A DNA stretch of 64,000 nt from Comamonas sp. BIGb0152 (GTDB lineage Bacteria; Pseudomonadota; Gammaproteobacteria; Burkholderiales; Burkholderiaceae_C): positions 1 to 64,000 of the forward strand of contig NZ_JANUDY010000008.1 of assembly GCF_024809975.1 (NCBI RefSeq), given 5' to 3'. Made by a program: the position numbers and the translations under genes. The stretch's first letter is position 1; each line of letters begins with the position of its first letter. A model generated the notes under the pieces. It ran no database searches, had not been told where the DNA came from, and saw only the letters and a program-made list of their open reading frames with translations. Shown one piece after another: positions 140 through 21,949 of this stretch.

Positions 140-1660
140 TCAGCGTTGGCGTCTGCGTATGCGCTGGGCGCCTACCATCGCCAGCAACAGGCCCATTCCG
201 GCCAGCGTCCATTGGCTCAAGGTGGGCACCCGTTGGGCCTCGGCCGTGTAGATGGGATGGTCGTCATTGCGAACGGCCACTTCGGCTGCCGAAGGTGTGC
301 CCAGCAGATAGTCATCGGTGGCAGCCGGTGGGGCCAAGGCAATGGCCGCCGTGACATCGCCATCGTCGACGATGTTGTTGGGGGTGGCCGTGATGCTGCA
401 GGTCGCGCTAGTCTGCCCGGCATTCACCACGATGGCACTGCCGCAGCTGCTGCTATAGCGCGGGTGGGCTGCGGGTGGCGTCAGGGTGATCGCCATGCCC
501 CCGGCAGGTGCGGGCTGGTCCAGGGTGATGGTGCAGGTGGCGACATTGCCCGCTGCATCGACCAGTGCATCGGGCGTGCACACCAGGGTAGCGGTCCACT
601 TTGGCAAGCAGGCGGCTGCATCGCCGCTGGTGGCGCCTGCCGTGCTTTGGCTGGCGCCCACCGTGCCGGCTGGGATGGTCATGATGCGCGTGCCCAGGCC
701 GTAGAAAGCCATCTTGTCCGTGGCATTGGGCAGGCGGGCCGCTGCACCATAAGGGGCATTGAAGGGTGCAGGCGCCACCGCTACCAGGGTCTCGACAGCA
801 CCCGAGGACAGGTTGAAGCGGTAGCTGACGGAGGTTCCGGAGAACAGGCCGCCCGTGGTTGCAATGCCGTAAGCCCATTGCCCGCTGGCATCGATGGCAA
901 AGTCGCCCGACTGCGCGCCGGGAATATTGCTGGCCAGGTTCAAGGTACCCACATAGAGCGGCGGGGTCTGCGTCACATCTATCTTGAAGACCCGGTTGAG
1001 CAGTCCCCCGGTTTGGAAGTTGGCCAAATACAGGATGCCGGTGACCGGGTCGATATCGGCGGCGTTGAAGTTGGGGCCCAGGCGCAGGTCGACCGCACCG
1101 CTGACCAAGCTGCTCGCATCGGTGGGGTCGGTCTGGTAAGTCCCCAGCCCGCTCACGATGCCCAGGTTGTCCACGCCATCGCGGCCATAGCGCAGCATCT
1201 CGTAGTAGCGGGTGTGGCTGCGCCAGCCGCCCCCGGCAGCGCTGCTCCAGCCTGCAGCCGGGCTGGTATCCCAGCTGTTGTCACCATCCACAGCGCGCAT
1301 GCTGTAGAGGTAGCCATCCTTGCCCATGCCGCCTGCCACAGAGGCACCTGCGGGCAGCGGTGGGTTGGGTGGCGTCGGCGATATTTCGCGGGGCGAAACG
1401 GTGGGCGCTGCAGCGCCGCTCCAGATTTGTGAAATCGCCACGCTGCCTGTAGCCGGCACCGTTGCCAAATCCAGCACGGCCGTTGGGGGCCTGCCTGTGG
1501 AGGCGGGGCCGGTGTAGCGCGTCAGATAAAAAGATTGTTCGCTTGCAGCGCAACGTGGAAGCGGGGCTCCCGCTGCAGCCATGGCCGCCGGGACCAGCGC
1601 AGCGCCAGCGGTGATCAGCACCCCCATGCGGACCAGTGTCGTATTTCTAATAAAGGACAT
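140..1660 (-). CDS. IPTL-CTERM exported protein with a beta-rich body
   Basis: A 506-residue exported protein. An N-terminal signal peptide of about 28 residues ends at an AMAAAG site. The last 29 residues form a tripartite sorting tail: VPTLSQW, a hydrophobic segment, then RIRRRQR. This matches the IPTL-CTERM signal, thought to anchor proteins for processing at the cell envelope. Residues 70-340 look like a repetitive beta-propeller-like region with DPVTGILYLAN and FAIDASGQWAYG strands. Residues about 360-465 resemble a Calx-beta or Ig-like domain. The ATG start is preceded by AGGAGA six bases upstream. Ligand and role are unknown. Confidence 0.85.
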   Translation of the reverse strand: MSFIRNTTLVRMGVLITAGAALVPAAMAAAGAPLPRCAASEQSFYLTRYTGPASTGRPPTAVLDLATVPATGSVAISQIWSGAAAPTVSPREISPTPPNPPLPAGASVAGGMGKDGYLYSMRAVDGDNSWDTSPAAGWSSAAGGGWRSHTRYYEMLRYGRDGVDNLGIVSGLGTYQTDPTDASSLVSGAVDLRLGPNFNAADIDPVTGILYLANFQTGGLLNRVFKIDVTQTPPLYVGTLNLASNIPGAQSGDFAIDASGQWAYGIATTGGLFSGTSVSYRFNLSSGAVETLVAVAPAPFNAPYGAAARLPNATDKMAFYGLGTRIMTIPAGTVGASQSTAGATSGDAAACLPKWTATLVCTPDALVDAAGNVATCTITLDQPAPAGGMAITLTPPAAHPRYSSSCGSAIVVNAGQTSATCSITATPNNIVDDGDVTAAIALAPPAATDDYLLGTPSAAEVAVRNDDHPIYTAEAQRVPTLSQWTLAGMGLLLAMVGAQRIRRRQR

Positions 1661-1710: not shown

Positions 1711-2499
1711 ATGCCGGAAAGGCATTGTTAATGAATTTATAACTACACATTAGGTTTATTTTTTTTAGATATTTAATTATGGGCGTAAAGTGCTGATGGT
1801 GCAAATGTAAAAAAAATCCGTGCATATAGAGATGGATGATATTACGGGGTTTGTTGCTATGTTTTCAATAGCTTTATTTTGTAAAAGGCAATCTATTATT
1901 ATTAATTGATTGATACGCGCTATCTGATTAATTCACAATTGTTTTTGTTGAGGGAGATAAATCCGCGCAAGAGAGGCTGGTGCCGCCTCCGCCTTGCCGA
2001 GGTGTGGTGCTCCGCTTCCGCCGCGAGGGAGGCTCTGCAAAACCTTCGCCAAGTGGGATGGACGCGGATCGGGATGAGGCGCAAGGCGTCTTTTGCAGTC
2101 GAGCTGTAGCTATTGACAAGGAAGACAACGCAGCTGATCGCCCGAGACCGCGTTCAGCCCATGGCAGGGAGTTTTGCAGAGGTTCCCTAGGTGATGATGC
2201 AGTCGGGGGCGTTCCAGTGGTGGGTGCCAGGGCGGCGGTGCTGGCTTGCCCGGGCCTGCAGACGCTGGGTGGGTCGGGGCAGTGGGAGGGCGGCGCCACG
2301 GTGGGTAGCAGAAATGCCATAGGCTGGCTATCTGCGCGGGATGGGCCGGGTTGGAGGGCCTTGGTGAAGGCCCCGGCCGCAGCGCTGAATGGGGGCGCAG
2401 GGCAGGCTGGCCCTGGCCTGCTCCCAATGCTCCGGCCGGCCCGTTCCCGCCTGCCTTTTTAGGCGCGCGCCCAAAAGCTATCCGGAAAGGCCACTGCGC
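1711..2499. other. Gene-free interval
   Basis: No convincing gene is visible in this roughly 790-base stretch. The first 250 bases are AT-rich and probably hold the promoter of the IPTL-CTERM gene. The remainder is GC-rich, and its open frames have no recognisable domain and alanine/proline/arginine-rich shadow composition. It contains a dispersed repeat at 2052-2092 continuing to about 2164. Confidence 0.5.
2052..2092. repeat. Dispersed repeat, copy 1
   Basis: A 41-base segment containing GGGATGGACGCGGATCGGGA and ending GCGCAAGGCGTCTT matches 34 of 41 bases of the segment at 58667-58707 by eye. Similarity extends weakly about 25 bases to the left. Both copies lie upstream of genes for exported proteins with sorting-type C-termini. 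Confidence 0.5.
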
Positions 2500-3711
2500 T
2501 CAGGATTTGACCAAGGGGCACTTGCCTTCGGACAGCGGCCGGAAGGCCTGTTCGCCCGGAATGGTGGCAATGATCTTGTAGTAGTCCCAGGGCGCCTTGG
2601 ATTCCTCGGGCTTTTTGACCTGGACCAGGTACATGTCATGCACCATGCGGCCGTCCTCGCGGATCTTGCCGTCGTCGGCAAAAAAGTCCTTGATGGGCAT
2701 TTTCTTCATCGCGGTCATCACGGCAGCGGTCTCGTCGGTGCCAGCGGCTTCGACCGCCTTGAGGTAGTGCATCACTGCCGAATAGGTGCCGGCCTGCGCC
2801 ATCGTCGGCATCTTGTTCATGACCTTGAAGTATTTTTGCGACCAGGCGCGGCTGTCGGGCGTGCGGTCCCAGTAGAACGCGGTGGTAGCGTACATGCCCT
2901 GCGCCGTCTTCAGGCCCAGCGCATGCACATCCGAGATGAACATCAGCGCTGCGGCCACCTTTTGCTTGTCGGTAATGCCAAACTGCCGTGCACTCTTGAT
3001 GGAGTTGATGGTGTCGTTCACGCCATTGGCCAGCGCAATCACATCGGCCTTGGAGGCCTGGGCCGTCAGCATGTATGACGAAAAATCCGGCGCATTGAGC
3101 GGGTGCTTGACCGAGCCGATCACCTTGCCGCCGTTCTTGTCGACGGCCGCCGTGATGTCGCTCGACAGTGCCTGGCCAAAGGCATAGTCCACCGCCACGA
3201 TGTACCAGCTCTTGCCGCCGCCCTCGGTCACTGCCTTGACGGTACTGTTGGCCGTGGCATAGGTGTCATAGGTGTAGTGCACGATGTTGGCCGCGCAGTT
3301 CTCGCCGGTGATGGAGCTGGAGCCCGCCTCGGTGTTGATCAGCACCTTGTTCTTTTCCTTGGCCACGGTGGCCACCGCGTTGTGCACGGCGGTGTTGCCC
3401 AGTCCGATGACCATGTCCACGTTCTCGCGGTCAAACCATTCGCGCGCGCGGGTGGCGCCAATGTCGGCCTTGTTCTGGTGGTCCACCGACAGCAGCTCGA
3501 TCGGCTTGCCCAGCACCTTGCCGCCAAAATCTTTGATCGCCATCGTGGCTGCAGCCACCGTGCCTTTGCCGCCAATATCGGCATAGGCGCTGGAGGTGTC
3601 GCTGATCACCCCGATTCGCACGGCGTTATCGGATACGCCCTGCGCCCATGCGCCAGACGCCAGGCCAACAGAGGCAAGCAGGGTGGTCAAACAAGTGGTT
3701 CTGAACTTCAT
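2500..3711 (-). CDS. ABC transporter substrate-binding protein, branched-chain amino acid (LivK) type
   Basis: A 403-residue periplasmic binding protein of the Leu/Ile/Val type (Peripla_BP_6). The signal peptide of about 23 residues ends ASGAWAQ; the mature fold starts at VRIGVISDTSSAYADIGGKG. It is the last gene of the catabolic operon, 157 bases after the preceding acyl-CoA ligase, and its start has AGGAGA. No permease or ATPase gene is in the window, so it must use components encoded elsewhere. In such clusters, LivK homologues often bind the aromatic or aliphatic acid that the operon degrades; that assignment here is inference. Confidence 0.9.
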   Translation of the reverse strand: MKFRTTCLTTLLASVGLASGAWAQGVSDNAVRIGVISDTSSAYADIGGKGTVAAATMAIKDFGGKVLGKPIELLSVDHQNKADIGATRAREWFDRENVDMVIGLGNTAVHNAVATVAKEKNKVLINTEAGSSSITGENCAANIVHYTYDTYATANSTVKAVTEGGGKSWYIVAVDYAFGQALSSDITAAVDKNGGKVIGSVKHPLNAPDFSSYMLTAQASKADVIALANGVNDTINSIKSARQFGITDKQKVAAALMFISDVHALGLKTAQGMYATTAFYWDRTPDSRAWSQKYFKVMNKMPTMAQAGTYSAVMHYLKAVEAAGTDETAAVMTAMKKMPIKDFFADDGKIREDGRMVHDMYLVQVKKPEESKAPWDYYKIIATIPGEQAFRPLSEGKCPLVKS

Positions 3712-3868
3712 GGAAATGGTCTCCTGGTATTTTTATCGTTGGCCACGGTCTGGCGGGTTTGCCCATTGCTGAAAGGTGCAGGGCAAGGGCGGCAGACGGG
3801 CGCGGGGTAGCGGTTTGCACAAGGGGCTGTGGCCGGTGGCCAAAGCCCGGTGGGGGCAGGGCGGCGTG

Positions 3869-5683
3869 TCAGGTCATGCGGCGCTCCTTGGCTGGTGGCC
3901 GGGCAGCTTCGGGGGAGGGTGTCTGGCCTTGCAGCTCGGCCAGGATCATGGCCTTGAGCTTGAACTTCTCGATCTTCTGCGTCAGCGTGCGCGGGAACTG
4001 TTCCACCACGCGGATATGGCGCGGCCGCATGAACTTGGGCATCTTGCTGTCGCACCAGGCCTGCAGCGCCTGGCGGTCGATCACCTGCTGCTCGCGGGCC
4101 ACCACATAGACGACGACATCGTCCTCGTCGCCTTCATGGGCGGGGATGGCGAAGGCAGCCGTCATCTCCACCGCTGGGTACTGGTTGAGCATGTCCTCGA
4201 TATGGAAGGACGAGATGTTCTCGCCCCGCACGCGGATGCGGTCGCCCATGCGGTCGACAAAGCTCAGGCTGCCATTGGCATGGCGCAGCGCCGAGTCACC
4301 CGTGTGGAACCACAGGTTGCGAAAGGCCTTGGCGGTCGCCTGCGGCTTGCCCAGGTATTCCACCAGCAGGTAATAGGGCAGCTTGGAGCGGAAGGCCAGC
4401 TGCCCGGCCACGCCCACCGCGCATTCGCCATCGCGCTCGTCCAGCACGGCGGCTTCCACAAACAGGCAGGGGTGGCCCAGGTAGCCCTTGCCCACCTGGC
4501 CGGCTTGCGCGGGCGCTAGCAGCTCCACACCTAGCGCTGCCGCCTGCGCGCGGATGGCCTCACGCGTCTGCCCGCGCCGGTAGGCGGGCGGGGATTCGCA
4601 GCTGGCGTCCGTCTCTTCAATGATGGTGAAGCAGGACATGCCCGACTCGGTCTGGCCAAAGCCGGCCGTCACAAAGTCAAAACCAAAGCGGCGAGCAATC
4701 TCCCCATGGCGCTCGGGCAGCGGCTGCATGTAGACCTTGTTGAGGCTGTTGTGGCGGTCGGTAGCGGCCGGCGCTGCCTTGGCCAGCCAGGAGATCATCG
4801 TGTCCACCAGCACCGCGCTGGTAGCACCGCTCAGCGCAATGCGGCGCCAAAAATCATTGGGGCTAAAGCGGTCCCAGCAGGCCAGGCCACTGCCGGCCCA
4901 TACCGCCCGCACCACGTTGAACACCGCGCCGCCCACGTGGTACATCGGCAAGTCGTTGTAGACCACGTCATGGCCATTGAGCATCTGGCGGAACAAATAG
5001 GTGTACTGGTTCATCCAGCGGTGGCTTTGCACCACGCCTTTGGATGGCCCGGTCGTGCCCGAGGTGTAGATGATGTTGCACAGGTCGTCATAGGCCAGCG
5101 CCACATCCGGCTTGGGTGCCGGTTGCAGCAGCGCAGCCCAGTCCCGCTCTGCGTGCGGACCGCTGTAGGCCACGCCATCGGCCACTGCATCATGGCTGCC
5201 CGCGGGCGGGTCGTAGACCACGACATGGGCCAAGGGCGCCACCTGGCCCAGCTGCTCGCTGATCGCATTGAGGGCCGGCACCAGCGCACGCTCGGCCAGC
5301 AGCATCACCGGCTGGGTGTCGCCGACCTGGTAGGCCAGCAGGCGCTCGGTCAGGCCAAAATTGATAGGCGCAAAGATGGCACCGGCCTTCCAGATGCCAA
5401 ACATCGCCAGCGCGCTGATGAGCTGGTTGCGCATAAACACCGACACCGGCATGCCCCGGCCGATACCGGCTGCGGCCAGGTTGCCGGCGATGGCATCGGT
5501 GATGCGGTCGAATTCGGCATAGCTCAGCCGCACATCGTCTTCGCCATACAGGTAGAAGAGCTGGTCGCCCTTAGTGCGCGCCCAGTGCGCCAGGCGCTCG
5601 GTCACCAGCTCGCCATCGCGCTGCAGCAGCTCCAAAAGCGCCTGGTTATCCAGCGCTGCAACCGCGTGCTCTTGCGCGTTCAT
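3869..5683 (-). CDS. ATP-dependent acyl-CoA ligase (CaiC-like, AMP-forming)
   Basis: A 604-residue adenylate-forming enzyme that activates a carboxylic acid with ATP and CoA. The AMP-binding P-loop IIYTSGTTGPSKGVVQSH lies near residue 210. The hinge region HTGDSALRHANGSLSFVDR is near 470, and the C-terminal lobe has a QKIEKFKLK segment. It resembles the crotonobetaine/carnitine-CoA ligase subgroup more than fatty acyl-CoA ligases. Its ATG overlaps the stop of the upstream ligase gene (ATGA at 5680-5683), which implies translational coupling. Two different ligases side by side suggest two acid intermediates or broad substrate use. The substrate cannot be read from the sequence. Confidence 0.88.
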   Translation of the reverse strand: MNAQEHAVAALDNQALLELLQRDGELVTERLAHWARTKGDQLFYLYGEDDVRLSYAEFDRITDAIAGNLAAAGIGRGMPVSVFMRNQLISALAMFGIWKAGAIFAPINFGLTERLLAYQVGDTQPVMLLAERALVPALNAISEQLGQVAPLAHVVVYDPPAGSHDAVADGVAYSGPHAERDWAALLQPAPKPDVALAYDDLCNIIYTSGTTGPSKGVVQSHRWMNQYTYLFRQMLNGHDVVYNDLPMYHVGGAVFNVVRAVWAGSGLACWDRFSPNDFWRRIALSGATSAVLVDTMISWLAKAAPAATDRHNSLNKVYMQPLPERHGEIARRFGFDFVTAGFGQTESGMSCFTIIEETDASCESPPAYRRGQTREAIRAQAAALGVELLAPAQAGQVGKGYLGHPCLFVEAAVLDERDGECAVGVAGQLAFRSKLPYYLLVEYLGKPQATAKAFRNLWFHTGDSALRHANGSLSFVDRMGDRIRVRGENISSFHIEDMLNQYPAVEMTAAFAIPAHEGDEDDVVVYVVAREQQVIDRQALQAWCDSKMPKFMRPRHIRVVEQFPRTLTQKIEKFKLKAMILAELQGQTPSPEAARPPAKERRMT

Positions 5684-7305
5684 GCGGCACTCGCTTTCTG
5701 CGGCTCCTTCAGCAGGCGCCGCAGCACCTTGCCGGTGCCCGTGGTGGGCAGCGCATCGCGAAACTCAATCTCCCGGGGCGCTTTGTAGACCGACATCTGC
5801 TCGCGGCACCAGTCGATCAGCTGCTGCGCGCTCACCGCCGGCGCGCCCTTGCGGGCAATGACCACCGCCTTGACCGCCTGGCCCTTGTGCGGGTCCTCAA
5901 TGCCGATCACCGCCACCTGCGCGACCGACGGGTGCTTGATCATGATGGACTCGACCTCCTCGGGGAAGACGCTGTAGCCCGAGACCTTGATCATCTCCTT
6001 GAAGCGGCCGGCAAAGGTCAGGTAGCCATCGGCGTCGATCTTGGCCATGTCGCCGGTGTACACCCAGCCGTCCTTCAAGGTGCTGGCCGTCGCCTCGGGC
6101 TTGTTCCAGTAGCCCTTGAAGTTGCCCGGGCTGCGCAAAACCAGCTCGCCCACTTGGCCAGCCGGCAGGTCCTGGCCCGTATCCGCATCGATCACGCGGC
6201 ATTCCACCCCTTGGATGGGAATGCCGTGTGCGCCCCATTTGATGGCATCGATCGGCATCGAGGTGTCCCAGGTGTGGGTCTCGGACATGCCATAGGTCAC
6301 CTCGAACAGCTGGCAGTTGGGCGCAAAGCCGCGCCACTGCTCGGCCAGCGCCTGGTTGATGGTGATGCCAAAGCTGGTGCTGGGGTTCATGCGCAGGGCG
6401 CCCAGGTCATAGCTGCGTGCGTCTTCCACCTGCATCACCGCCGCGTTCATGCTGGCCACGCTGTACCACCAGGTCACCCGGTAGCGCGCCAGCGCCTGCA
6501 GCACCTGCACAGGGTCAAAGCGGTACAGCAGCACGCAGCTGATGCCCGTGTAGAGCGTGACATTGAGGCCGATCAGCATGCCCGCAATGTGGTTCAGCGG
6601 AGCGACCGCCAGCATGGTGTCGTCATCGCGGATGGGGTTGTTGTCTGCCGCCGCATGGGCCTTGAACAGCGCATTGCGGTAGCTCAGCATCGCGCCCTTG
6701 GGCAGGCCGGTGGTCCCCGAGGTATAGGTCATCAGCGCCACATCGTCCATGTCCAGCGGGCCCACATCGGGCGCTGGCTGCGGCGTGCGCAGGCAGTCCA
6801 AAAAGTCGGTGGTGCCTTCGATATGGCGCTTGGGTGTGTCGATTTCTGCGGGCAGGTCGATCGTCGGCTGGGCCGGCAGCAGATCGGCGTAGTGGGTGAG
6901 GAACACATGTTCAATCGCCGTCTTGGGTCGCGCCGCCTGCACGATCTCGTAGAGCACATCGGCGGCCACAATCACCTTGGCGCCCAGGTCGGAGAGCTGG
7001 TATTCCAGCTCATGGCCCTTGAACAGCGGGCTGCAGGGCCCCACCACCGCGCCCAGCTTCTGGATGCCGATATGCGCAATCACATACTGAGGGCAGTTCT
7101 GCATGAACAGCGCAACCCGGTCCCCCTTGACCACGCCGCGCTGCTGCAGCTGGTGAGCGAAGGTATCGCTCATCTGGTCCAGCTGGGCGTAGCTGATGGC
7201 AGTGCCGTACCAGATAAAGGCGGGCTTGTCGGGCTGGGTGCGCGCATGCTGGCGCAGGTATTCATGCAAAGGCTTTTCTTGTTGCCGGTAAGCGATGGGG
7301 GTCAT
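5680..7305 (-). CDS. AMP-dependent acyl-CoA synthetase (fatty/aryl acid type)
   Basis: A 541-residue AMP-forming acyl-CoA synthetase. Motifs: P-loop MTYTSGTTGLPKGAMLSY near residue 195, YTGDMAKIDADGYLTFAGR near 420, and the C-terminal catalytic lysine in LPTTGTGKVLRR. The start has AGGAGA with a 4-base spacer. It sits 60 bases after the carboxylase gene and overlaps the next ligase by 4 bases. In the operon it would form the CoA thioester of the acid made by the aldehyde dehydrogenase, giving the carboxylase its substrate. That order is inferred from neighbours. Confidence 0.9.
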   Translation of the reverse strand: MTPIAYRQQEKPLHEYLRQHARTQPDKPAFIWYGTAISYAQLDQMSDTFAHQLQQRGVVKGDRVALFMQNCPQYVIAHIGIQKLGAVVGPCSPLFKGHELEYQLSDLGAKVIVAADVLYEIVQAARPKTAIEHVFLTHYADLLPAQPTIDLPAEIDTPKRHIEGTTDFLDCLRTPQPAPDVGPLDMDDVALMTYTSGTTGLPKGAMLSYRNALFKAHAAADNNPIRDDDTMLAVAPLNHIAGMLIGLNVTLYTGISCVLLYRFDPVQVLQALARYRVTWWYSVASMNAAVMQVEDARSYDLGALRMNPSTSFGITINQALAEQWRGFAPNCQLFEVTYGMSETHTWDTSMPIDAIKWGAHGIPIQGVECRVIDADTGQDLPAGQVGELVLRSPGNFKGYWNKPEATASTLKDGWVYTGDMAKIDADGYLTFAGRFKEMIKVSGYSVFPEEVESIMIKHPSVAQVAVIGIEDPHKGQAVKAVVIARKGAPAVSAQQLIDWCREQMSVYKAPREIEFRDALPTTGTGKVLRRLLKEPQKASAA

Positions 7306-7365
7306 GTTGTCTCCTACGGTCCTGGTGTTTTTTGGGGATCTCGGTCGCAGTCTTGAGGTGGATGC

Positions 7366-10300
7366 CTACCAGGGCGATACGCCCGATGCCGCCCGCCCCG
7401 GGCTGGCCGCTGGCAGGCTGGCCAGCATGCTGGCCAGCCAGTCGCGGGTCTGCGCCGGGTCGATCACATCGTCGATCTCGTTGTAGCTGGCCACATTCAG
7501 CGCCTTGCCCTGGGCATAGATCTCATCGGTCTTGGCCTGGAAGTAGGCGGCCTTCTCGCCCGGGTCCTCCAGCGCTTCCAGCTCGCGCCGGTAGGCCAGG
7601 CGCACCGAGCCTTCGATGCCCATGGGCCCTAGCTCGCCGGTGGGCCAGGCGACCGTGGCCACCGGCACAAACAGGTTGCCGCCCAGCATGGCCTGCGCGC
7701 CCAGGCCATAGGCCTTGCGCAGCACAATCGCCAGCACGGGCACCTTGATGTGGCTGGCCGTCACAAAGATGCGGGCAAAGTGCCGCACGGCCGCAGCCTT
7801 CTCGCTCTCGGGCCCCACCATAAAGCCTGGCGTATCGCACAGCGATACCACCGGCAGGCCGTAGTTGTCGCACAGCTCCAAAAAGCGCGATATCTTGTCG
7901 GCGCTGTTGGCATCGAGCGCGCCGCCCAGGTGGCTGCCGTCGTTGGCCAGCACACCCACGGCCTGGCCTTGCAGCCGGGCAAAGCCGGTGACGACGCTGC
8001 GGCCAAAGTGCTCGCGCAGCTCCAGAAAGCTGCCGCTGTCAAACAAGGTCCGCACCACCGCGCGGATGTCGTAGCCCTTGACCCGGTTCTCGGGCACCAG
8101 CGCGCGCAGCTGGCGCTGGTCGGCATGTTCGCCGGGCGGCAGCTTGCCTTGCACAAAGCCCAGGTAGGTCTGGGCCAGGGCCACGGCCTCGGTCTCGTCG
8201 CGGGCCAGCAGGTCAATCACGCCATTGCGGGTTTGCACGCTCACCGGGCCGACGTCGTCAGCCGCCACCACGCCCAGGCCGCCGCCTTCGATCATTGCCG
8301 GCCCGGCCATGCCGATGCTGGCATCCTGCGTGGCGATGATCACATCGCAGCAGCCCAGCAAGGCGGCATTGCCGGCAAAGCAGCGGCCCGAGACGACGCC
8401 GATGGTGGGCACCTTGCCCGACAGCCGTGCCATGTGCGTGAAGGTGGTGAACTCCAGCCCCGACACGCCCACATAGTCGGTATCGCCCGGCCGCCCGCCG
8501 CCGCCTTCGGCAAACAACACAAAGGGCAGGCCCAGGCGTTCGCTGGTGTGCACGATCCGGTCCATCTTGCGGTGGGCCATAAAGCCCTGCGTGCCGGCAA
8601 ACACCGTGTAGTCATAGGCCATCACTGCGCATCGCGCATGCTCGGCCCCAAACAGCTGGCCGTTGATGCGGCCCAGGCCGGTGATGGTGCCATCCGCTGG
8701 GCTGACGCGAATCAGCTCCTCCTCGCTGCGGCGGCCGCGTTGCATGGCCAGGGTCAGGCCGCCGTATTCCACAAAGCTGCCAGCATCGAGCAACTGGTCC
8801 AGGTTCTCGCGCGCGGTGTTCTTACTGTGGCGCCGGCGCTTGGCCACGGCTTCGGGGCGGGCGGCATCCAGCAGCCCTTGCTGGCGCTGCAGCACCTTGG
8901 ACAGGTCAGGGCGGATGGCATCCAGGTCGGCCTGTTGCAGCTCGCTGGCCAGCCCATCGGCTGATGCATCGGGCAGCACCCAGCCCAGCAAAGTGCCTGC
9001 CGCTACCACCTCGCCCAGCAGCGCCGTGCGGGCCACAAAGCGGCCCCCCAGGGCCAGGTCCACGCTGTGCTCCAGCTTCATGGCCTCCAGCACCGCCACC
9101 GAGGCACCCTTGGCCTGCACGGTATCGGCATCGCTCTCCAGCGCAATCAGCCGCCCGCGCATGGCAGCGCGTACTGCATGGGCGCCTTCGGGCAGCGCGG
9201 GCTCGTCGTTGGTGCGGGTCGGCGTGGCGTTCTGGCCGGTGGCTTGCGGATCAGGCTGGCGCTGCGCGGCCAGGGCCGCCGCTGCTGCATGCAGGGCCGG
9301 GCCTTGGCGCTCCACATAGGTGGTGTCGATCTGGCCGTGCAGCACCTGCGCATCGCGCAGCAGTGCGCGCAGGTAGTCCAGGTTGGTCTCCACCCCGCTG
9401 ATATGGAACTCGGCCAGCGCGCGGTCGGCCTTGGCGCAGAGCACCGCGAACTGGTTGGGGCCGCTGACGATCACCTTGGCGAGCAGGGAGTCGTAGTTGC
9501 CCGAGGTCTCGTAGCCGGTATAGCCAAAGCTGTCCACGCGCACGCCCGGGCCGGTGGGCGGCTCAAAGCGCGCTAGGGTGCCGCCGGTGGGCAGGGCCTG
9601 GGCATCGGGCTGCATGCTTTCCATGTTCACGCGCGCCTGCAGCGCAAACTGGCGGGGCAGCGGCAGTGCCTGGGCCAGGCCCAGGTCTTGCAGGCTGGCG
9701 CCATCGGCCAGCGCAAACTGCAGTGCCACCAGGTCCAGCCCGGTGATGGCCTCGGTGATGGTGTGCTCCACCTGCAGGCGCGGGTTGCATTCGATAAAGA
9801 TGTACTGGCCGCTGCGGCTGTCCACCAAAAACTCCACGGTGCCCAGGCCTTGGTAGTGCAGCGCTGCACCCAGCCGGCAGGCGTGTTGCAGCAGTTGCGC
9901 GCGCAGCGCTTCGTTGATGAAGGGGCTGGGTGCAATCTCCAGCAGCTTTTGGTGGCGGCGCTGCAGGGTGCAGTCGCGCTCAAACAGGTGTTGCACGGCG
10001 CCGCTGCCGTCGCCCACGATCTGCACCTCGATATGGCGCGCGCCGCTGATGAGCTGCTCCACATACAGATCACCCCGGCCAAAGGCGCCCAGGGCTTCGG
10101 AGCTGCAGCGCTCAAAGGCTGCGGCCAGGTCCGCCGGGGCCATCACCGCACGCATGCCCCTCCCGCCGCCGCCCGCCAAGGCCTTGAGCATTACCGGCCC
10201 ACCGACCTGCTGCATAAAGTGTTGGGCTTGTGCCAGGCTGGTGGCACTGTGCGTGCCCTGGGCCACCGGCACCTGCTCACGCTCGGCCAGCGCGCGCGCC

Positions 10301-10647
10301 TGGGCCTTGTCGCCAAAGGTCTCCAGCGCCTGGGCCGACGGGCCAATAAAGCGCAGACCGGCTGCCGTGCATGCCTGCGCAAACACCGCGTTCTCGCTCA
10401 AAAAGCCATAGCCGGGGTGGACGGCATCGCAGCCTTCCTGGCGGGCGATCTCAATCAGATGCGCGCCATTCAAATAAGCGGCTGCACCCTGGGCGCCCAG
10501 CGCGCGCGCATGGTTCGCCGCGCGCCGGTGCAGGCTGGCTGCGTCGTCGCTGGCATAGACCGCAACGCTCTCGATGCCCCGGTCTGCGGCCGTGCGTGCA
10601 ATGCGCACCGCAATTTCCCCCCGGTTGGCGATCAATACCTTGTGCAT
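7366..10647 (-). CDS. Single-chain biotin-dependent acyl-CoA carboxylase (BC-BCCP-CT fusion)
   Basis: A 1093-residue fusion of all carboxylase parts. Residues 1-450 are biotin carboxylase: N-terminal HKVLIANRGEIAVRI, ATP-grasp loop GGGGRGM, and ECNPRLQVEHTITEA, which replaces the usual MNxRxQVEH. Residues about 500-580 are a biotinyl domain with the lysine in VLEAMKLEHS. Residues about 590-1090 are N- and C-halves of carboxyltransferase, including FAGTQGFMAHRKMDR, EGGGGRPGDTD and CDTPGFMVGPESE. The usual CT oxyanion segment SGGARIQEG is divergent. The frame is open 138 codons further upstream, but ATG 10647 has AAGGAG five bases before it and begins the conserved domain, and the extension is compositional shadow. 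Most carboxylases split these domains over two chains. Substrate unknown. Confidence 0.92.
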   Translation of the reverse strand: MHKVLIANRGEIAVRIARTAADRGIESVAVYASDDAASLHRRAANHARALGAQGAAAYLNGAHLIEIARQEGCDAVHPGYGFLSENAVFAQACTAAGLRFIGPSAQALETFGDKAQARALAEREQVPVAQGTHSATSLAQAQHFMQQVGGPVMLKALAGGGGRGMRAVMAPADLAAAFERCSSEALGAFGRGDLYVEQLISGARHIEVQIVGDGSGAVQHLFERDCTLQRRHQKLLEIAPSPFINEALRAQLLQHACRLGAALHYQGLGTVEFLVDSRSGQYIFIECNPRLQVEHTITEAITGLDLVALQFALADGASLQDLGLAQALPLPRQFALQARVNMESMQPDAQALPTGGTLARFEPPTGPGVRVDSFGYTGYETSGNYDSLLAKVIVSGPNQFAVLCAKADRALAEFHISGVETNLDYLRALLRDAQVLHGQIDTTYVERQGPALHAAAAALAAQRQPDPQATGQNATPTRTNDEPALPEGAHAVRAAMRGRLIALESDADTVQAKGASVAVLEAMKLEHSVDLALGGRFVARTALLGEVVAAGTLLGWVLPDASADGLASELQQADLDAIRPDLSKVLQRQQGLLDAARPEAVAKRRRHSKNTARENLDQLLDAGSFVEYGGLTLAMQRGRRSEEELIRVSPADGTITGLGRINGQLFGAEHARCAVMAYDYTVFAGTQGFMAHRKMDRIVHTSERLGLPFVLFAEGGGGRPGDTDYVGVSGLEFTTFTHMARLSGKVPTIGVVSGRCFAGNAALLGCCDVIIATQDASIGMAGPAMIEGGGLGVVAADDVGPVSVQTRNGVIDLLARDETEAVALAQTYLGFVQGKLPPGEHADQRQLRALVPENRVKGYDIRAVVRTLFDSGSFLELREHFGRSVVTGFARLQGQAVGVLANDGSHLGGALDANSADKISRFLELCDNYGLPVVSLCDTPGFMVGPESEKAAAVRHFARIFVTASHIKVPVLAIVLRKAYGLGAQAMLGGNLFVPVATVAWPTGELGPMGIEGSVRLAYRRELEALEDPGEKAAYFQAKTDEIYAQGKALNVASYNEIDDVIDPAQTRDWLASMLASLPAASPGRAASGVSPW

Positions 10648-10714
10648 GGAACTCCTTTGTCTCTTCAATCGCGGTACGCCGCGCAAGGGGCCCGCAGGCT
10701 GCGGGCCCGCGCGC

Positions 10715-12145
10715 TCAGATGGTCTGGCTGACAAACTTGCTGCTGAGGTAGAAGGCCAGCGCATCGGCGCCGCCTTCGCTGGCGTAGCCCGAATCCTTGA
10801 CGCCGCCAAACGGCTGCTCGGGGTAGCCCATCGCAATCGAGTTGATGCCCACCAGGCCGCTTTCGATCTCGTTCTTGAACCACTCGCCCCGCGTGGCCGA
10901 GCCGGTGAACACATAGGCGGCCAGGCCCCAGGGCAGGCGGTTGGCTTCTTGCAGCGCTTGCGCATCGCTGTCAAAGCGCGCAAACGCGGCAATCGGGCCA
11001 AAGGGCTCTTCGTTGAAGATGCGCGCATCCTGCGGCACATCGGCCAGCACCGTGGGCGCAAAAAAGTAGCCCTTGCCGTCCGGCGCCTTGCCGCCCGTCA
11101 CCAGGCGGGCGCCCTTGGCCACGGCGTCGTCCACCAGCGCCTGCATGGCGGCCACGCGGCGCGGGTTGGCCAGTGGGCCCATGCGGGTGGCCTTGTCCAG
11201 GCCATTGCCCATCACATAGCCTTCGGCAATGCGCTGAAAGCCAGCGACGGCCTCGTCATACAAAGGCGCCTGCACCAAAAAGCGCGAGGGCGAGATGCAG
11301 GCCTGGCCGGCGTTCCAGAACTTCTGCACGCCCAAGAGCTTCAGGCTGCGCGCCAGGTCGGCGTCGTCGCAAATGATGGCCGGCGCATGGCCACCCAGCT
11401 CCATCGACACGCGCTTCATCGCCGCGCCCGCTTGCGCGCTCAAGAGCTTGCCCACCGAGGTGGAACCGGTGAACGAGATCTTGCGCACCACCGGCGAGGC
11501 AATCAGGTGCTCGGAGATATCCGCCGGCACGCCATAGACCAGGCCCAGCACGCCCGCGGGCAGGCCGGCCTGCTCCAGCACCTGGATGAAACGGGCGAGG
11601 GCGACGGGGGTTTCTTCCGAGCCCTTGACGATGATCGAGCAGCCCGCCGCCAGCGCGGCCGCGATCTTGCGCACGGCCTGGTTGATGGGGAAGTTCCAGG
11701 GCGTGAACGCCGCGACCGGGCCCACGGGCTCATGCTGCACATACTGGCGCAGCTCGGGCGAGCGCGGCGGGATCATGCTGCCGTAGCAGCGGCGCGCCTC
11801 TTCGGCAAACCATTCCAGCACCTCGCTGGCGCCTGACAGCTCGATGCGCGCCTCGGTCAGGCGCTTGCCTTGCTCATGCACCAGCATCAGCGCCATTGCT
11901 TCGGCATGCTCGCGCACCAGCGCGGCGGCCTTGCGCAGATAGGTGGAGCGCTCCATCGCCGAGGTTTTGCGCCAGGCGGCAAAGCCGGTTTGGGCGGCGG
12001 CCAGTGCGGCATCCAGATCGGCGCGGCTGGCCTTGGCGACGCGGCCAATCAGGCTCTCGTCGGCGGGGTTGACGATGTCCAGCCATTGCTGGCTGCTGCT
12101 GTCGCGCCACTGGCCGTCGATCAGCAATTGGACTTGGTAGTTCAT
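10715..12145 (-). CDS. NAD(P)-dependent aldehyde dehydrogenase, succinate-semialdehyde dehydrogenase type
   Basis: A 476-residue member of the aldehyde dehydrogenase superfamily, nearest in pattern to GabD-like succinate-semialdehyde dehydrogenases. Visible motifs: the proton-accepting glutamate in MELGGHAPAIICDDADL near residue 250, the nucleophilic cysteine in NAGQACISPSRF near 285, cofactor loop FTGSTSVGK near 225, and EEPFGPIAAFARF near 380. Start ATG with AGGAG. It lies 67 bases upstream of the carboxylase gene and 24 bases after the alcohol dehydrogenase gene, so it probably oxidises the aldehyde that enzyme makes. Whether succinate semialdehyde is the natural substrate is not known. 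Confidence 0.9.
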   Translation of the reverse strand: MNYQVQLLIDGQWRDSSSQQWLDIVNPADESLIGRVAKASRADLDAALAAAQTGFAAWRKTSAMERSTYLRKAAALVREHAEAMALMLVHEQGKRLTEARIELSGASEVLEWFAEEARRCYGSMIPPRSPELRQYVQHEPVGPVAAFTPWNFPINQAVRKIAAALAAGCSIIVKGSEETPVALARFIQVLEQAGLPAGVLGLVYGVPADISEHLIASPVVRKISFTGSTSVGKLLSAQAGAAMKRVSMELGGHAPAIICDDADLARSLKLLGVQKFWNAGQACISPSRFLVQAPLYDEAVAGFQRIAEGYVMGNGLDKATRMGPLANPRRVAAMQALVDDAVAKGARLVTGGKAPDGKGYFFAPTVLADVPQDARIFNEEPFGPIAAFARFDSDAQALQEANRLPWGLAAYVFTGSATRGEWFKNEIESGLVGINSIAMGYPEQPFGGVKDSGYASEGGADALAFYLSSKFVSQTI

Positions 12146-12169
12146 GCGGTGCTCCTTGTTGTTGTGGGT

Positions 12170-13246
12170 TCAGCTTTGCAAAATGGCGCGGCCCGTGACC
12201 TTGCCGGCACGCAGCTCGTCCAGCACGGCCTGCACATCGCCCAGCGGGCGGCTGCTGAGCGGCAGCGGCGGCAACACCCCTTGCTGGGCCAGTGCCACCA
12301 GTTCGCGCAGCTCGGCCAGCGACCCCACATACGAGCCGCCGATGGAGATGGCACGCATGGGGATCAGCGGCAGTTGGATGCTGGCGCTGCCGCCAAACAG
12401 GCCCACGATGAGAATCTTGCCGCCCTTGCCGACAACGGCATTGGCAAACTCGAAGGTGCGTGTGGAGCCGACAAAATCGAGCACAGCCGACACGCCTTCG
12501 GCGCTGGAGCGCGCCAGGGTCTTGGCGGCATCGGCTTCTGCCGGGTCCACCACGCGGCTGGCGCCGGCATCTAGCGCGGCCTGGCGCTTGGCCGGGTCGA
12601 TGTCGACGACGATGGGCCCCAGGCCATGCAGGGCCTTGGCCAGTGCCACGGCAGCCAGGCCCACGCCGCCCGCGCCGATGATGACCAGCGGTGCGTTCTC
12701 AGTCGCAGGCGCCACTTTTTTGAGGGCGGAGTAGGCCGTCAGCCCCGAGCAGGCCAAGGTGGCGGCAAAGGCGGCATCGATGCCGGTGTGGTCGATCAGG
12801 TAGCGCGAATGGGGCACGCGCACATGGGTGCTAAAGCCGCCATCGCGTGTGGTGCCCAGGCTCTCGGGGCGGGCACACATATGCTCGTCGCCCCGGACGC
12901 ACAGCGCGCACTGGCCGCAGCCAATCCAGGGGAAGACGATCACCGAGCGGCCCAGCGCGCCTTCGGCATCGGGCCCGTTGGCAGCAACGGTGCCGACGAT
13001 CTCATGGCCCAGGGTGCGTGGCGGCTTGAGCACTTTTTCCAGCCCGAAGTGGCGGCCATCGCCCAGGTCAAAAAAGCCCTCGGCCATGTGCAGATCGCTG
13101 TGGCAGACGCCGCAGGCGCTGATGCGTACCAGCACTTCGCTGCCTTGCGGCGCGGCTATGGCGCGGCGCGCCAGTTGCAGCGGTTGGCCAAAATCGACGA
13201 CCTGGTAACTCAGCTGTTCGCCAGCGGTGGCGGTTGCGTTCGACAT
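12170..13246 (-). CDS. Zinc-dependent alcohol dehydrogenase (MDR family)
   Basis: A 358-residue medium-chain dehydrogenase. The catalytic zinc site is in CGVCHSDLHMAEG (Cys near 43) plus HEIVG. The structural zinc site is CGQCALCVRGDEHMC (four cysteines). The Rossmann loop is IIGAGGVGLAAVALA. An insertion around the GHE motif (DGRHFGLEKVLKPPRTLGHE) is typical of some bacterial alcohol dehydrogenases. First gene of the minus-strand operon, start ATG with AGGAGA. It is divergent from a TetR gene with a perfect palindrome in the shared 267-base upstream region. It probably oxidises the alcohol that enters the pathway. Confidence 0.92.
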   Translation of the reverse strand: MSNATATAGEQLSYQVVDFGQPLQLARRAIAAPQGSEVLVRISACGVCHSDLHMAEGFFDLGDGRHFGLEKVLKPPRTLGHEIVGTVAANGPDAEGALGRSVIVFPWIGCGQCALCVRGDEHMCARPESLGTTRDGGFSTHVRVPHSRYLIDHTGIDAAFAATLACSGLTAYSALKKVAPATENAPLVIIGAGGVGLAAVALAKALHGLGPIVVDIDPAKRQAALDAGASRVVDPAEADAAKTLARSSAEGVSAVLDFVGSTRTFEFANAVVGKGGKILIVGLFGGSASIQLPLIPMRAISIGGSYVGSLAELRELVALAQQGVLPPLPLSSRPLGDVQAVLDELRAGKVTGRAILQS

Positions 13247-13340
13247 GCGCTTGTCTCCTGTATCAAAGGGCTCAGGTGCTGCTGGCGCGGCGCCGAAGCG
13301 CTTGCATCAAAACCGCCAGCCAGCAGTGGAAAACCCCAAA

Positions 13341-13356
13341 GATACTGATCAGTATC
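13341..13356. promoter_or_regulatory. Perfect 16-bp palindrome, probable TetR operator
   Basis: GATACTGATCAGTATC is its own reverse complement. It lies between the alcohol dehydrogenase start (13246, minus) and the TetR-family start (13514, plus), 95 bases upstream of the operon. Length and symmetry match TetR-family operators. It is the only obvious palindrome in the interval. Confidence 0.7.
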
Positions 13357-13513
13357 GTTTGGTACCATTGGGGATTTCACGCATGCCCTATGTCTGCATC
13401 CGCTGCAAAACGCATCGCCTTTCCACTATGCTGGGGCCCATGCGCTTTGCAAGCCGGCGTCTGTGGCGCGAGTCACCACGGCAGCCCCCGCGCCCACCAG
13501 GAGAAATTCAGCA

Positions 13514-14176
13514 GTGCAGCTTCAACCCACCGACACCAGCGCAGCCGATGCCAAAAACCAGATCCAGGAATACAAGGACACCTTGATCATCAATGCCGCT
13601 GCCGAGCTGTTTTACAAGCGCGGCTTTAAGAGCGCGACGCTCGACGACATAGCCGCATCCATCGGCGTGACCAAGCCCTTTATCTACAAGCGCTTCAAGT
13701 CCAAGCATGAGCTGCTGGAGCGCCTGTTTGACAAGGTGTTCTCCGGCCTTTACGAAGCGGTGAGCCAGTGCGAGCAATTGGAGGACAAGGACCCGGTGCG
13801 GCGCTTCGAATTTTTTATCGACACCTATACGCGCAGAAAGATCGAGCTGAGCACGTTCTCTGCCATCCTGCTGGAAGAGGAAAAAAGCCTGAGCCCGGAG
13901 AAAATCAGCGACATCCGCAGCAAGTACCATGGCTTTGATGCGCTGGTGACGCGGCTCATCGTCAATGGCGTAGAGGCTGGCGTTTTTGACGTCAGCAATC
14001 CCAAGGTAACGGCCTTTGCGATCAGCGGCATGGTGCAGTGGACGCACCGCTGGTACCAGCCCAACGGCAAGCTGTCCATCGAGGCGCTGTGCCAGGAGAT
14101 GACGCAAATGGCGTTGCGCCTGGTGGGCTGGACGGGGCAGTACGTGCTGCCCGAGCCGCCTGCGCCGCAGCGCTGA
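13514..14176 (+). CDS. TetR/AcrR-family transcriptional regulator
   Basis: A 220-residue regulator. The N-terminal helix-turn-helix is at about residues 25-70 (DTLIINAAAELFYKRGF ... LDDIAASIGVTKPFIYKRF). The C-terminal ligand domain ends MVQWTHRWYQPNGKLS, a pattern common in TetR proteins controlling acyl-CoA metabolism (KstR/PsrA/FadR-like). GTG 13514 is preferred because AGGAGA lies nine bases before it; the frame is open 17 codons further upstream. It is divergent from the catabolic operon and probably represses it through the 13341 palindrome, with an acyl-CoA as likely inducer. The ligand is inference. Confidence 0.85.
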   Translation: MQLQPTDTSAADAKNQIQEYKDTLIINAAAELFYKRGFKSATLDDIAASIGVTKPFIYKRFKSKHELLERLFDKVFSGLYEAVSQCEQLEDKDPVRRFEFFIDTYTRRKIELSTFSAILLEEEKSLSPEKISDIRSKYHGFDALVTRLIVNGVEAGVFDVSNPKVTAFAISGMVQWTHRWYQPNGKLSIEALCQEMTQMALRLVGWTGQYVLPEPPAPQR

Positions 14177-14250
14177 TCTGCCGCATGCATTGGGCGCGGT
14201 GGCCCGCCGCGAATGTCCTGCGTAAAGACAGTATTTACAATTGAATATAA

Positions 14251-14267
14251 TTGAGATTCATTCTCAA
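14251..14267. promoter_or_regulatory. Fur-box-like inverted repeat upstream of the FecI-type sigma gene
   Basis: TTGAGATTCATTCTCAA: arms TTGAGA and TCTCAA around a 5-base centre, 34 bases upstream of the sigma factor start, overlapping a TATAAT at 14246-14251. The pattern resembles Fur sites of the AATGAGAATNATTCTCATT type, so iron repression of the sigma gene is likely. Confidence 0.6.
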
Positions 14268-14300
14268 CTATAAGCTTTTGCACCAGGGCGCGGACATCGC

Positions 14301-14804
14301 ATGGCATCTCCCGGATACTCCGCTTCGCCCATCGAAGCGCTCTACAAAAACCACCACGCCTGGCTGCAATCCTGGCTGCGGCGCCGCCTGGGCAATGCAG
14401 GCGATGCCGCCGACCTGGCCCATGACACCTTTATCCGGCTGATGCTGTCGCCCCGCCATGTGGGCGTAGCCGATGAGCCGCGTGCCTTTTTGACCCATGT
14501 GGCCAAGGGCCTGGTGGTCGATCTGTGGCGCAGGCGCGAGATCGAGCGGGCCTACTTGGAGACGCTCGGGAACTTGCCACAGTCGCATGCACCATCGCCC
14601 GAGACGCAGATGCTGGTGATCGAGGCCTTGGTGCAGATCGACCGCCTGCTCGCCAGCCTGCCGCCCCAGACGCGCACCGTCTTTTTGCTGGCGCAGCTCG
14701 ATGGCCTGACTTTGCAGCAGATATCGGAGCAGGTGGCCATGCCGGTGATCACCGTGCGCCGCCATATCCACAAGGCCTTGCTCATGTGCCTGGAGGCTGC
14801 TTGA
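14301..14804 (+). CDS. ECF sigma factor, FecI-like
   Basis: A 167-residue extracytoplasmic-function sigma factor. Region 2 (residues about 12-80) contains LYKNHHAWLQSWLRRRLGN and DAADLAHDTFIRLM, typical of FecI/PvdS-like iron-uptake sigma factors. Region 4 (about 110-160) contains LPPQTRTVFLLAQLDGLTLQQISE. The stop overlaps the start of the FecR-like gene (TGATG), so the two are co-translated. No TonB-dependent receptor gene follows, although the family usually drives one. The nearest receptor with the required signalling domain is at 39477. A Fur-box-like site precedes the gene. Confidence 0.9.
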   Translation: MASPGYSASPIEALYKNHHAWLQSWLRRRLGNAGDAADLAHDTFIRLMLSPRHVGVADEPRAFLTHVAKGLVVDLWRRREIERAYLETLGNLPQSHAPSPETQMLVIEALVQIDRLLASLPPQTRTVFLLAQLDGLTLQQISEQVAMPVITVRRHIHKALLMCLEAA

Positions 14805-15760
14805 TGGCAGGCGTTGCATCCCCAAATAGCTTGCTGAGCGAGGCGGCGGACTGGCTGATTGTGCTGCGCTACGAGACGCCCACTGCCAAGGAGCAGGCGA
14901 GTTTTGAGCAATGGCGCAGCCAGAGCCCCGCGCATGAGGCGGCCTGGCACAAGGCAGAAGCCATGATGGGTGTGTTTGCCCAAGTGCCACCCGACGTTTG
15001 CCAGCAGACCCTGGGCGCCGTGCAGCGGCCCGACCGCCGCAAAAGCCTGGCCTGGCTCGGTGGCTTGCTGGTGGCGGCCCCGGCCGGCGGGCTGGCCTGG
15101 CGGGAGCTGTCCTGGCGTGATTGGATGGCCGACCAGGCCACCGCCGTGGGGCAATCGCGCTCGATACTGCTGCCCGATGGTTCCACCTTGACGCTCAACA
15201 CCGCCAGCGCGGTGGCTATCCATTTCAACCCGCAAGAGCGCCGGGTACGGCTGCTGGGTGGCGAGATCTTGTTGACCACCCATACCGACCCATCGCCCAG
15301 CTACCGCCCCTTTGTCGTGGAGACGCGCCAGGGCAGCGTGCAGGCGCTGGGCACACGTTTTAGCGTGCGCCGTGTGGATGCCGACACCAGCCGCGTAGCG
15401 GTATTCATCCACTCCGTCGCCATTACTAACCGGCAAGGCGCGACGCAGCTGCTGCAAGAAGGGCACACCGCTGATTTCAGCACCAGCCATATCGGCCCGC
15501 AAACCGATGTGCAAGCCAGCGCCGCGCTGTGGGAGCAGGGCATGCTGCTGGCCAAGAATATGCCGTTGGCAGACGTTGTCGCCGAGATCGCCCGTTATCG
15601 TGCGGGCCCGCTGCAGTGTGATCCTGCGGTTGCCCAGCTGCGGCTATCGGGGGCCTTGTCGCTCAAGGACACGGATGCTAGCCTGGCGCTGCTGGCGCAG
15701 TCGTTGCCGGTGCGGATTGAGCGGTTAGCGCATGGGCAGGTGAGGGTGGTGGGGCGATAA
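14804..15760 (+). CDS. FecR-like transmembrane anti-sigma regulator
   Basis: A 318-residue FecR-family sigma regulator. The N-terminal cytoplasmic DUF4880-type domain has EAADWLIVLRYETPTAKEQASFEQW. One membrane segment follows near residues 80-100 (LAWLGGLLVAAPAGGLAW). The periplasmic FecR domain contains GQSRSILLPDGSTLTLNTASAV, FVVETRQGSVQALGTRFSV and a C-terminal STN-interacting part (AEIARYRAGPLQCD). ATG 14804 overlaps the sigma stop; the frame is open farther upstream, but the domain starts here. It should relay receptor occupancy to the FecI-like sigma factor. Confidence 0.9.
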   Translation: MAGVASPNSLLSEAADWLIVLRYETPTAKEQASFEQWRSQSPAHEAAWHKAEAMMGVFAQVPPDVCQQTLGAVQRPDRRKSLAWLGGLLVAAPAGGLAWRELSWRDWMADQATAVGQSRSILLPDGSTLTLNTASAVAIHFNPQERRVRLLGGEILLTTHTDPSPSYRPFVVETRQGSVQALGTRFSVRRVDADTSRVAVFIHSVAITNRQGATQLLQEGHTADFSTSHIGPQTDVQASAALWEQGMLLAKNMPLADVVAEIARYRAGPLQCDPAVAQLRLSGALSLKDTDASLALLAQSLPVRIERLAHGQVRVVGR

Positions 15761-17835: not shown

Positions 17836-17912
17836 GTATGCGCTGCGGATTTAGGGCGTTCTGATTGATTAAAAACTGCATCCATGTTCGGATGCGTACA
17901 TCGGGAGATGAT

Positions 17913-20626: not shown

Positions 20627-20651
20627 GGGTTCTCCTTGAGAAGGGGTAGAT

Positions 20652-21863: not shown

Positions 21864-21930
21864 GAGAACTAGTTCGGGATTAAGCGCAATAGCCGCTTTG
21901 TCCCACGGCGGTTTTGCGGGCGCAATAGCA

Positions 21931-21949
21931 TGTTTCGCTGAGCGAAACA
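21931..21949. promoter_or_regulatory. IclR-type operator palindrome
   Basis: TGTTTCGCTGAGCGAAACA: two perfect 9-base arms around a single base, located between the divergent CoA-transferase and IclR genes. The GTTTCG / CGAAAC core resembles sites reported for IclR-family regulators. Confidence 0.65.

Follow-up and report, generated by a model that had tools for sequence, protein, structure and literature searches.

Single-chain long-chain acyl-coenzyme A (CoA) carboxylases (LCCs) are known from an enzyme that accepts C2 to C16 acyl-CoAs, with a Michaelis constant (Km) for palmitoyl-CoA 350-fold below that for acetyl-CoA (PMC6491548, citing Tran 2015). Besides this preference for long chains, homohexameric assembly is a mark of the family. 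The portions of the literature available to us treat the substrates of LCCs in the cell as unsettled, which makes an operon built around such an enzyme useful. Carboxylases of the geranyl/methylcrotonyl group, in the available part of the same source, act on alpha-beta unsaturated acids at a position other than the alpha carbon (PMC6491548), and in the Atu and Liu pathways they are the two-subunit enzymes AtuC/AtuF and LiuB/LiuD (PMC4097962). A third described system, from stambomycin biosynthesis, joins the fatty acyl-CoA ligase SamR0482 to the carboxylase subunit MccB (PMC5187497). Here we describe a probable operon of Comamonas sp. BIGb0152 that lies within a 64,000-nucleotide (nt) stretch (contig NZ_JANUDY010000008.1, positions 1 to 64,000; the window) and places an LCC among genes for alcohol oxidation and acyl-CoA synthesis.

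The BIGb0152 genome measures 5.0 Mb in 22 contigs, and the operon is on contig C8. Six genes follow one another on the minus strand in the order ADH-ALDH-LCC-AclA-AclB-LivK, and tetR is divergent on the plus strand. This operon is a clade-specific variant that adds oxidizing enzymes at the front and a second ligase, of a rare type, to a known ligase-carboxylase core. Its features are as follows.

13463 to 14176, plus strand: TetR-family regulator, Pfam PF00440 (TetR_N) and PF17932 (TetR_C_24); exact start codon uncertain
13341 to 13356, no strand: candidate operator between ADH and tetR, the perfect 16-nt palindrome GATACTGATCAGTATC
12170 to 13246, minus strand: zinc-dependent alcohol dehydrogenase (ADH), 358 amino acids (aa), Pfam PF08240 and PF00107
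10715 to 12145, minus strand: aldehyde dehydrogenase (ALDH), 476 aa, semialdehyde-dehydrogenase type by sequence, PF00171
10688 to 10708, no strand: between ALDH and LCC, a perfect 10-bp inverted repeat without a T tract, from a repeat search
7366 to 10647, minus strand: single-chain acyl-CoA carboxylase LCC, 1093 aa, with biotin carboxylase (BC), biotin carboxyl carrier protein (BCCP) and carboxyltransferase (CT) parts in that order, Pfam Biotin_carb_N, CPSase_L_D2, Biotin_carb_C and Carboxyl_trans
8962 to 9198, minus strand: divergent biotinyl (BCCP) domain with EAMKLEH, from a weak PF00364 score and a predicted fold
5680 to 7305, minus strand: acyl-CoA ligase AclA, 541 aa, LCC-associated, PF00501 and PF13193
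3869 to 5683, minus strand: acyl-CoA ligase AclB, 604 aa, rare type, PF00501 and PF13193
2500 to 3711, minus strand: LivK-type periplasmic binding protein, 403 aa, PF13458 (Peripla_BP_6)

The gene families, coordinates, strands and TetR regulator given in the first-pass annotation were confirmed by Pfam, with the start of the carboxylase corrected from 11061 to 10647. The longest carboxylase open reading frame (ORF) starts at 11061 and encodes 1231 aa, but homology begins only at 10647, at an ATG preceded by AGGAGT; the 1231-aa ORF is therefore an upstream extension of a 1093-aa protein. The ratio of nonsynonymous to synonymous substitution rates (dN/dS) was 0.050 to 0.133 in all 21 comparisons of the seven genes with their counterparts in L009, L010 and L012. 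All seven genes are intact and under purifying selection. We rejected a decayed or chimeric carboxylase, since the longer ORF is merely that extension and the 1093-aa protein is free of stops and has a dN/dS of 0.106 to 0.133.

The best solved relative of the operon carboxylase is 4rcn, a mycobacterial long-chain acyl-CoA carboxylase, which aligns over residues 142 to 1212 of the 1231-aa ORF with an E value of 4.3e-303. A single chain of about 1,100 aa, colinear with 4rcn, carries the BC, BCCP and CT parts, and the homology to this proven LCC extends over almost the full length. The next solved relatives, 5fif and 5h80, are both labeled carboxylase and are presumably the Deinococcus single-chain enzyme. 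ALAGGGGRGMR, RRHQK, IECNPRLQVEH and the Arg in ARVNMES can be read in the sequence, and we take these motifs to be the BC active site as in Escherichia coli BC. The available part of one paper states the opposite domain order, with CT at the N terminus of LCC (PMC6491548), and the 4rcn alignment does not support this. Judged by its sequence, the operon carboxylase belongs to the known LCC family, in which it is divergent (43 to 55% identical to other family LCC matches outside its own clade). In a quick tree built from 54 LCC rows, with row L160 (which has stops) omitted, a split with SH-aLRT support of 99 separates 37 comamonad rows from the rest; the operon LCC clade (four rows, branch length 1.25) is among the rest, outside this main comamonad group, with comamonad rows L128 and L129 and rows from other groups. 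The operon clade is joined there to the long row L128, a warning of long-branch effects, and its exact place is unsure.

Across 53 Comamonas genomes, LCC matches were present in 37, six of them 93 to 100% identical to the operon LCC and 31 at 51 to 54%. AclB was found in exactly the six genomes with the operon-type LCC, and the second LCC type was absent from all six at the cut-off used. The full order, with TetR divergent, is kept in six of six (BIGb0152, L009, which is on the same contig as L233, L010 from Comamonas koreensis KCTC 12005, L012, L231 and L232); the seven proteins are 92 to 98% identical across the five other genomes, with TetR at 92 to 95% in L009, L010 and L012. Conservation over six genomes rules out a chance gene order. 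A search of 398 genomes of the phylum for AclB relatives at an E value of 1e-75 or below, in which the best three candidates per genome were scored, returned only the genome of BIGb0152 itself, and "rare" is used here for AclB in the sense of having no close relative. In the genomes searched, only one Comamonas clade has the ADH/ALDH front end, AclB and this regulator pair.

The palindrome GATACTGATCAGTATC is a single site in the whole genome with up to two mismatches allowed, and it is invariant across four aligned species. It fits a local TetR operator and is a candidate for one. TetR control, as the first-pass annotation had claimed, is supported because tetR is divergent and the palindrome is both conserved and unique in the genome, and the gene set is probably co-regulated and under TetR control.

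The core of the operon is not confined to this clade. We surveyed 299 Comamonadaceae genomes for LCC (E value of 1e-190 or below) and AclA (1e-130 or below) and found LCC in 50 and AclA in 32. LCC was present in 29 of the 32 AclA genomes (hypergeometric probability of 1.5e-23, which ignores genome relatedness); 21 LCC genomes were without AclA of this type. Among the three remaining AclA genomes, AclA adjoins an LCC-like protein without the BC part in G284 and has no LCC next to it in G015 and G097. The two genes were within 300 nt on one strand in 26 of the 29 genomes, farther apart on one strand in two and on different contigs in one. These gaps are measured between matches and not between genes, and the one in G146 is overstated, since its LCC match starts at residue 279. 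LCC precedes AclA in 1 of 28 same-contig pairs, that of the BIGb0152 operon, where the two matches are 63 nt apart on the same strand. A comparison of the cluster in relatives, which the first-pass annotation had proposed, gave one gene order in six Comamonas genomes and an AclA-LCC pair conserved as a unit in the family. At one locus, L247 in G015, AclA occurs without LCC in a YggS/PilT neighborhood that holds AclA-LCC in other comamonads, and this looks like a loss of the carboxylase. AclA adjoins an LCC-like protein of about 600 to 640 aa in L246 (6425 to 8359, minus strand); proteins of this size in L246, L158, L159 and L160 match only the BCCP and CT parts of LCC and are possibly split LCCs.

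The contents of family LCC loci were read by tblastn within 9 kb of LCC for 40 loci, fetched out of 50 LCC rows from other genomes. AclA was near LCC in 23 loci, LivK in 18, a TetR of the usual type in 21 and all three in 17. AclA homologues beside LCC in Comamonadaceae are 58 to 64% identical to the operon AclA. The operon TetR and the one usual-type TetR that was scanned both carry PF17932, and comparison with one usual-type protein each gave 22% identity over 258 aa for LivK and 27% over 188 aa for TetR. The LivK and TetR of the core unit thus belong to the same families as those of the operon without being orthologues; the exception is L142, where a LivK of the operon type (47%) lies between AclA and LCC. 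Three further Comamonas loci (L234 to L236) comprise one with AclA, LivK and TetR and two with LCC alone. Outside this genus, the Saccharopolyspora locus L015 has a ligase just upstream of LCC (36% identity); in the 10 other non-Comamonas loci (L011, L013, L014 and L016 to L022) no ligase is adjacent, and in three of them a ligase lies on the other strand at a distance of about 5 kb.

We read the locus as a TetR-controlled catabolic operon on a ligase-carboxylase core that would convert an alcohol to an acid, an acyl-CoA and a 2-carboxyacyl-CoA, and we rate this reading at about an even chance. In such a pathway LivK would capture the substrate in the periplasm, be it alcohol, aldehyde or acid, for a Liv-type ABC transporter whose genes lie elsewhere, and ADH and ALDH would oxidize a primary alcohol to the carboxylic acid. 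AclA would then make the CoA thioester, with AclB perhaps serving a second or chain-modified acid, and LCC would carboxylate the thioester, most likely at the alpha carbon, to give a 2-carboxyacyl-CoA (a substituted malonyl-CoA). TetR would repress from the palindrome, perhaps sensing the CoA thioester or the acid. We infer the order of the steps, the transport, the repression and the alpha position; the first-pass annotation had proposed the same alcohol-acid-CoA-carboxylation path, and the gene families fit it, while the linearity of the path stands as an inference. More tentatively, the operon may encode an aerobic catabolic route that starts from an alcohol and in which ATP-dependent alpha-carboxylation by LCC of a medium- or long-chain or aryl-substituted acyl-CoA is obligatory. 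If true, this would give the LCC family a defined physiological substrate.

Several observations weigh against reading the locus as a TetR-controlled catabolic operon. The 40 other LCC loci of the family contain neither ADH nor AclB of the operon type, and no ALDH at 40% identity or more (best match, 35%), so the core does not need these three enzymes; AclA of this type is itself absent beside LCC in 17 of the 40. The intergenic gaps from ADH to LivK are 24, 67, 60, -4 (an overlap of AclA and AclB) and 157 nt; the 157 nt between AclB and LivK and the inverted repeat between ALDH and LCC mean that transcription of LivK, or of the lower genes, could be separate. A consensus scan of positions 2300 to 14300 found no sigma-70-like promoter. 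The nearest solved relative of the ALDH acts on a semialdehyde, for which an omega-hydroxy acid would be as good a fit as a simple alcohol; the BCCP is divergent, its isolated domain reaching 16.3 bits with PF00364 against a cut-off of 22.1; and the operon is without an enzyme that uses the carboxylated product. A terminator scan of the same 12 kb was uninformative, with 5 terminator-like sites where shuffled sequence averaged 8.1, and had none in the ALDH-LCC gap.

The first-pass annotation was right that the cassette includes no beta-oxidation enzyme, hydratase or lyase, but this absence says little, because a second CoA-thioester cluster (19628 to 26253) begins about 5.5 kb beyond tetR. It contains an MDR/ADH-like protein, a family III CoA-transferase, an acyl-CoA dehydrogenase, a TctC binding protein and a nitronate-monooxygenase-like protein, and so includes some of the enzyme types absent from the cassette, but it has its own IclR regulator gene. 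A methylmalonyl-type continuation was rejected: the sole mutase match is at C2:651-653 kb, 3 kb from paired BC and CT matches and not close to the operon.

The alternative that survives best, although we think it unlikely, is that AclA and LCC act on an imported acid, with ADH and ALDH as a side arm that detoxifies or supplies an aldehyde, AclB acting on another acid, and no linear route from an alcohol. The 23 loci with AclA and LCC but without ADH, ALDH or AclB speak for this, as does the tight AclA-LCC spacing in 26 of 29 genomes, and a LivK paralogue stands beside an ALDH in the BIGb0152 genome itself, a pairing that recurs without LCC. It accounts less well for six genomes in which ADH, ALDH, LCC, AclA and AclB keep the same direction and order behind one divergent regulator, and for the purifying selection on the operon genes. 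We think it improbable that the operon supplies a 2-alkylmalonyl-CoA for biosynthesis, such as polyketide or lipid extender units, as SamR0482 and MccB do for stambomycin. The operon has no product-degrading enzyme, which would suit such a role, and the stambomycin precedent offers a ligase step by SamR0482 that the available part of the source terms probable (PMC5187497); a LivK-type protein, ADH and ALDH better suit uptake and catabolism, and no polyketide synthase was seen among the neighboring proteins scanned to about 35.7 kb, a scan that did not take in every ORF and was not accompanied by a genome-wide search for one.

Still less credible is an Atu/Liu-like function, in which a prenyl or 3-methyl-branched alcohol would become a 3-methyl-2-enoyl-CoA for gamma-carboxylation by LCC, with the hydratase and lyase elsewhere. 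Such a pathway would share its overall order of aldehyde, acid, CoA ester and carboxylation with the operon, yet the carboxylases known for it have two subunits (both points from the available part of PMC4097962), the CT domains of LCC grouped apart from those of the geranyl/methylcrotonyl enzymes in the available part of PMC6491548, and Pfam assigns none of the operon genes to a hydratase, lyase or desaturase.

The biotinyl domain of the LCC is divergent. PF00364 had no match at the window, nor in the whole protein at an E value of 1 or below, and the isolated domain from L009 scores 16.2 bits, close to that of the BIGb0152 protein, whereas four LCCs scanned from outside the operon clade score 40.9 to 63.3 bits. 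The biotin-site Lys is present in EAMKLEH. MKL is found in 4 of 48 readable LCC loci and MKM in 44, a count that excludes 6 of 54 loci with no match or a false match; a Saccharopolyspora LCC also carries EAMKL. AlphaFold2 confidently predicts a biotinyl fold for the domain (pLDDT, 90.4) and places the Lys where strand 33-39 turns into strand 42-47; a Foldseek search with this model matches MCC, 4rcn and free BCCPs. The weak match of the isolated domain and the predicted fold speak against a missing BCCP, and we take the domain as working but fast evolved. PA1400 is described as biotinylated in the available part of its source. That the carboxylase is decaying or lacks biotin transfer is very improbable: the sub-threshold score, the long branch of 1.25 and EAMKL in place of EAMKM would agree with it, but the gene has no stops and a low dN/dS, the Lys is retained on the predicted turn of a confident fold, and EAMKL recurs in Saccharopolyspora.

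Hints to the substrate of the proposed catabolic pathway come from relatives of its enzymes. The nearest solved relatives of ADH are NAD-dependent ADHs such as 2eer, and that of ALDH is 5x5t, an alpha-ketoglutaric semialdehyde dehydrogenase (1e-169). We surveyed 15 regions with ADH homologues, one from the BIGb0152 genome, using a crude ORF caller that gave no ADH ORF in three. Relatives of ADH and ALDH are side by side in 2 of the other 12, both from other comamonads: L190 (ADH 54%, ALDH 58%, with genes for a CoA-transferase and an enoyl-CoA hydratase close by) and L197 (49% and 52%, near boxC); they are about 3 kb apart in L194, and in L196 an ADH relative is beside boxABC. For the remaining 8 of the 12, the nearest ORFs listed included no ALDH of this type. 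These four contexts point weakly to aryl or similar acids handled as CoA esters. A P450-reductase fusion lies next to LivK in L133 (1080 to 4298, minus strand), L134 and L167, and a GDSL esterase follows LCC in these loci and in L138, with Pfam assignments made on the L133 copies only; these neighbors are a weak pointer to acyl chains or esters. The two sets of hints do not agree, and we leave open whether the alcohol is an aliphatic, branched or aryl-substituted primary alcohol.

The nearest solved relative of LivK is 3i09, and Pfam finds no permease or ATPase gene in the operon. LivK has eight paralogues at 47 to 56% identity in its own genome. Among six paralogue regions fetched, Liv permease and ATPase homologues occur only on C11, beside the LivK paralogue at 170.6 kb, and these are a possible shared transporter for the operon LivK. 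At L237 (C5:162679-163872) a LivK paralogue (56%) is directly followed by an ALDH (49%).

Other genes adjoin the operon. Immediately downstream is an IPTL-CTERM protein (140 to 1660, minus strand) with an A+T-rich stretch at about 1700 to 1980 in front of it. On the other side, tetR is adjoined by an ECF sigma factor (14301 to 14804, plus strand) and a FecR-type anti-sigma factor (14525 to 15760, plus strand). Two adjacent related proteins of 526 and 568 aa (16255 to 17835 and 17865 to 19571, plus strand) have no Pfam match, and L010 and L012 also have two copies each. Farther off, a protein with the catalytic domain of cobalamin-independent methionine synthase adjoins a MesX putative oxygenase (28170 to 30402, minus strand).

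Because the AclA-LCC pair is a conserved family unit, the new part of this operon is the addition of ADH, ALDH and AclB; the pair and the LCC family are of known kinds. ADH, ALDH, two ligases, LivK and a lone TetR with its candidate operator offer independent handles (inducer, ligand and ligase specificity) on the natural substrate of LCC, and with AclA and LCC together in 29 of 299 comamonad genomes, identifying the substrate would matter outside this clade as well. None of the literature matches listed dealt with this cassette, in a search with most subscription journals outside its scope.

Compared with the Atu pathway, the operon would run aldehyde oxidation, CoA ligation and carboxylation in the same order but has a single-chain carboxylase in place of AtuC/AtuF and neither the hydratase nor the lyase that accompany it, and it differs from Liu in the same way with respect to LiuB/LiuD (both from the available part of PMC4097962). 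Paired BC and CT matches do occur elsewhere in the BIGb0152 genome, on C1 and C2. The single-chain carboxylase and the lack of a hydratase or lyase in the operon rule out membership in either cluster, which bears out the mismatch noticed in the first-pass annotation. From the available part of PMC5187497, the pairing of SamR0482 with MccB is the nearest published logic that we found for a ligase with direct carboxylation, and it is biosynthetic: a fatty acyl-CoA ligase feeds direct acyl-CoA carboxylation, as proposed here, but MccB, a separate beta subunit, belongs to a polyketide cluster and is proposed to act together with AccA2, and ADH, ALDH and LivK, all present in the operon, are not mentioned in that part. 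The published LCC family, with mycobacterial (4rcn) and Pseudomonas members, has the same single-chain BC-BCCP-CT order over about 1,100 aa and a BCCP fold that the predicted one matches; the operon LCC is unlike other LCCs in its divergent BCCP with EAMKL and in sitting in an ADH-ALDH-ligase operon. The operon also resembles the AclA-LCC unit of Comamonadaceae, which has the ligase and LCC with a LivK-type protein and a TetR nearby (17 of 40 loci). In that unit AclA comes first and LivK and TetR are usually divergent, whereas in BIGb0152 LCC precedes AclA, and ADH, ALDH and AclB are added.

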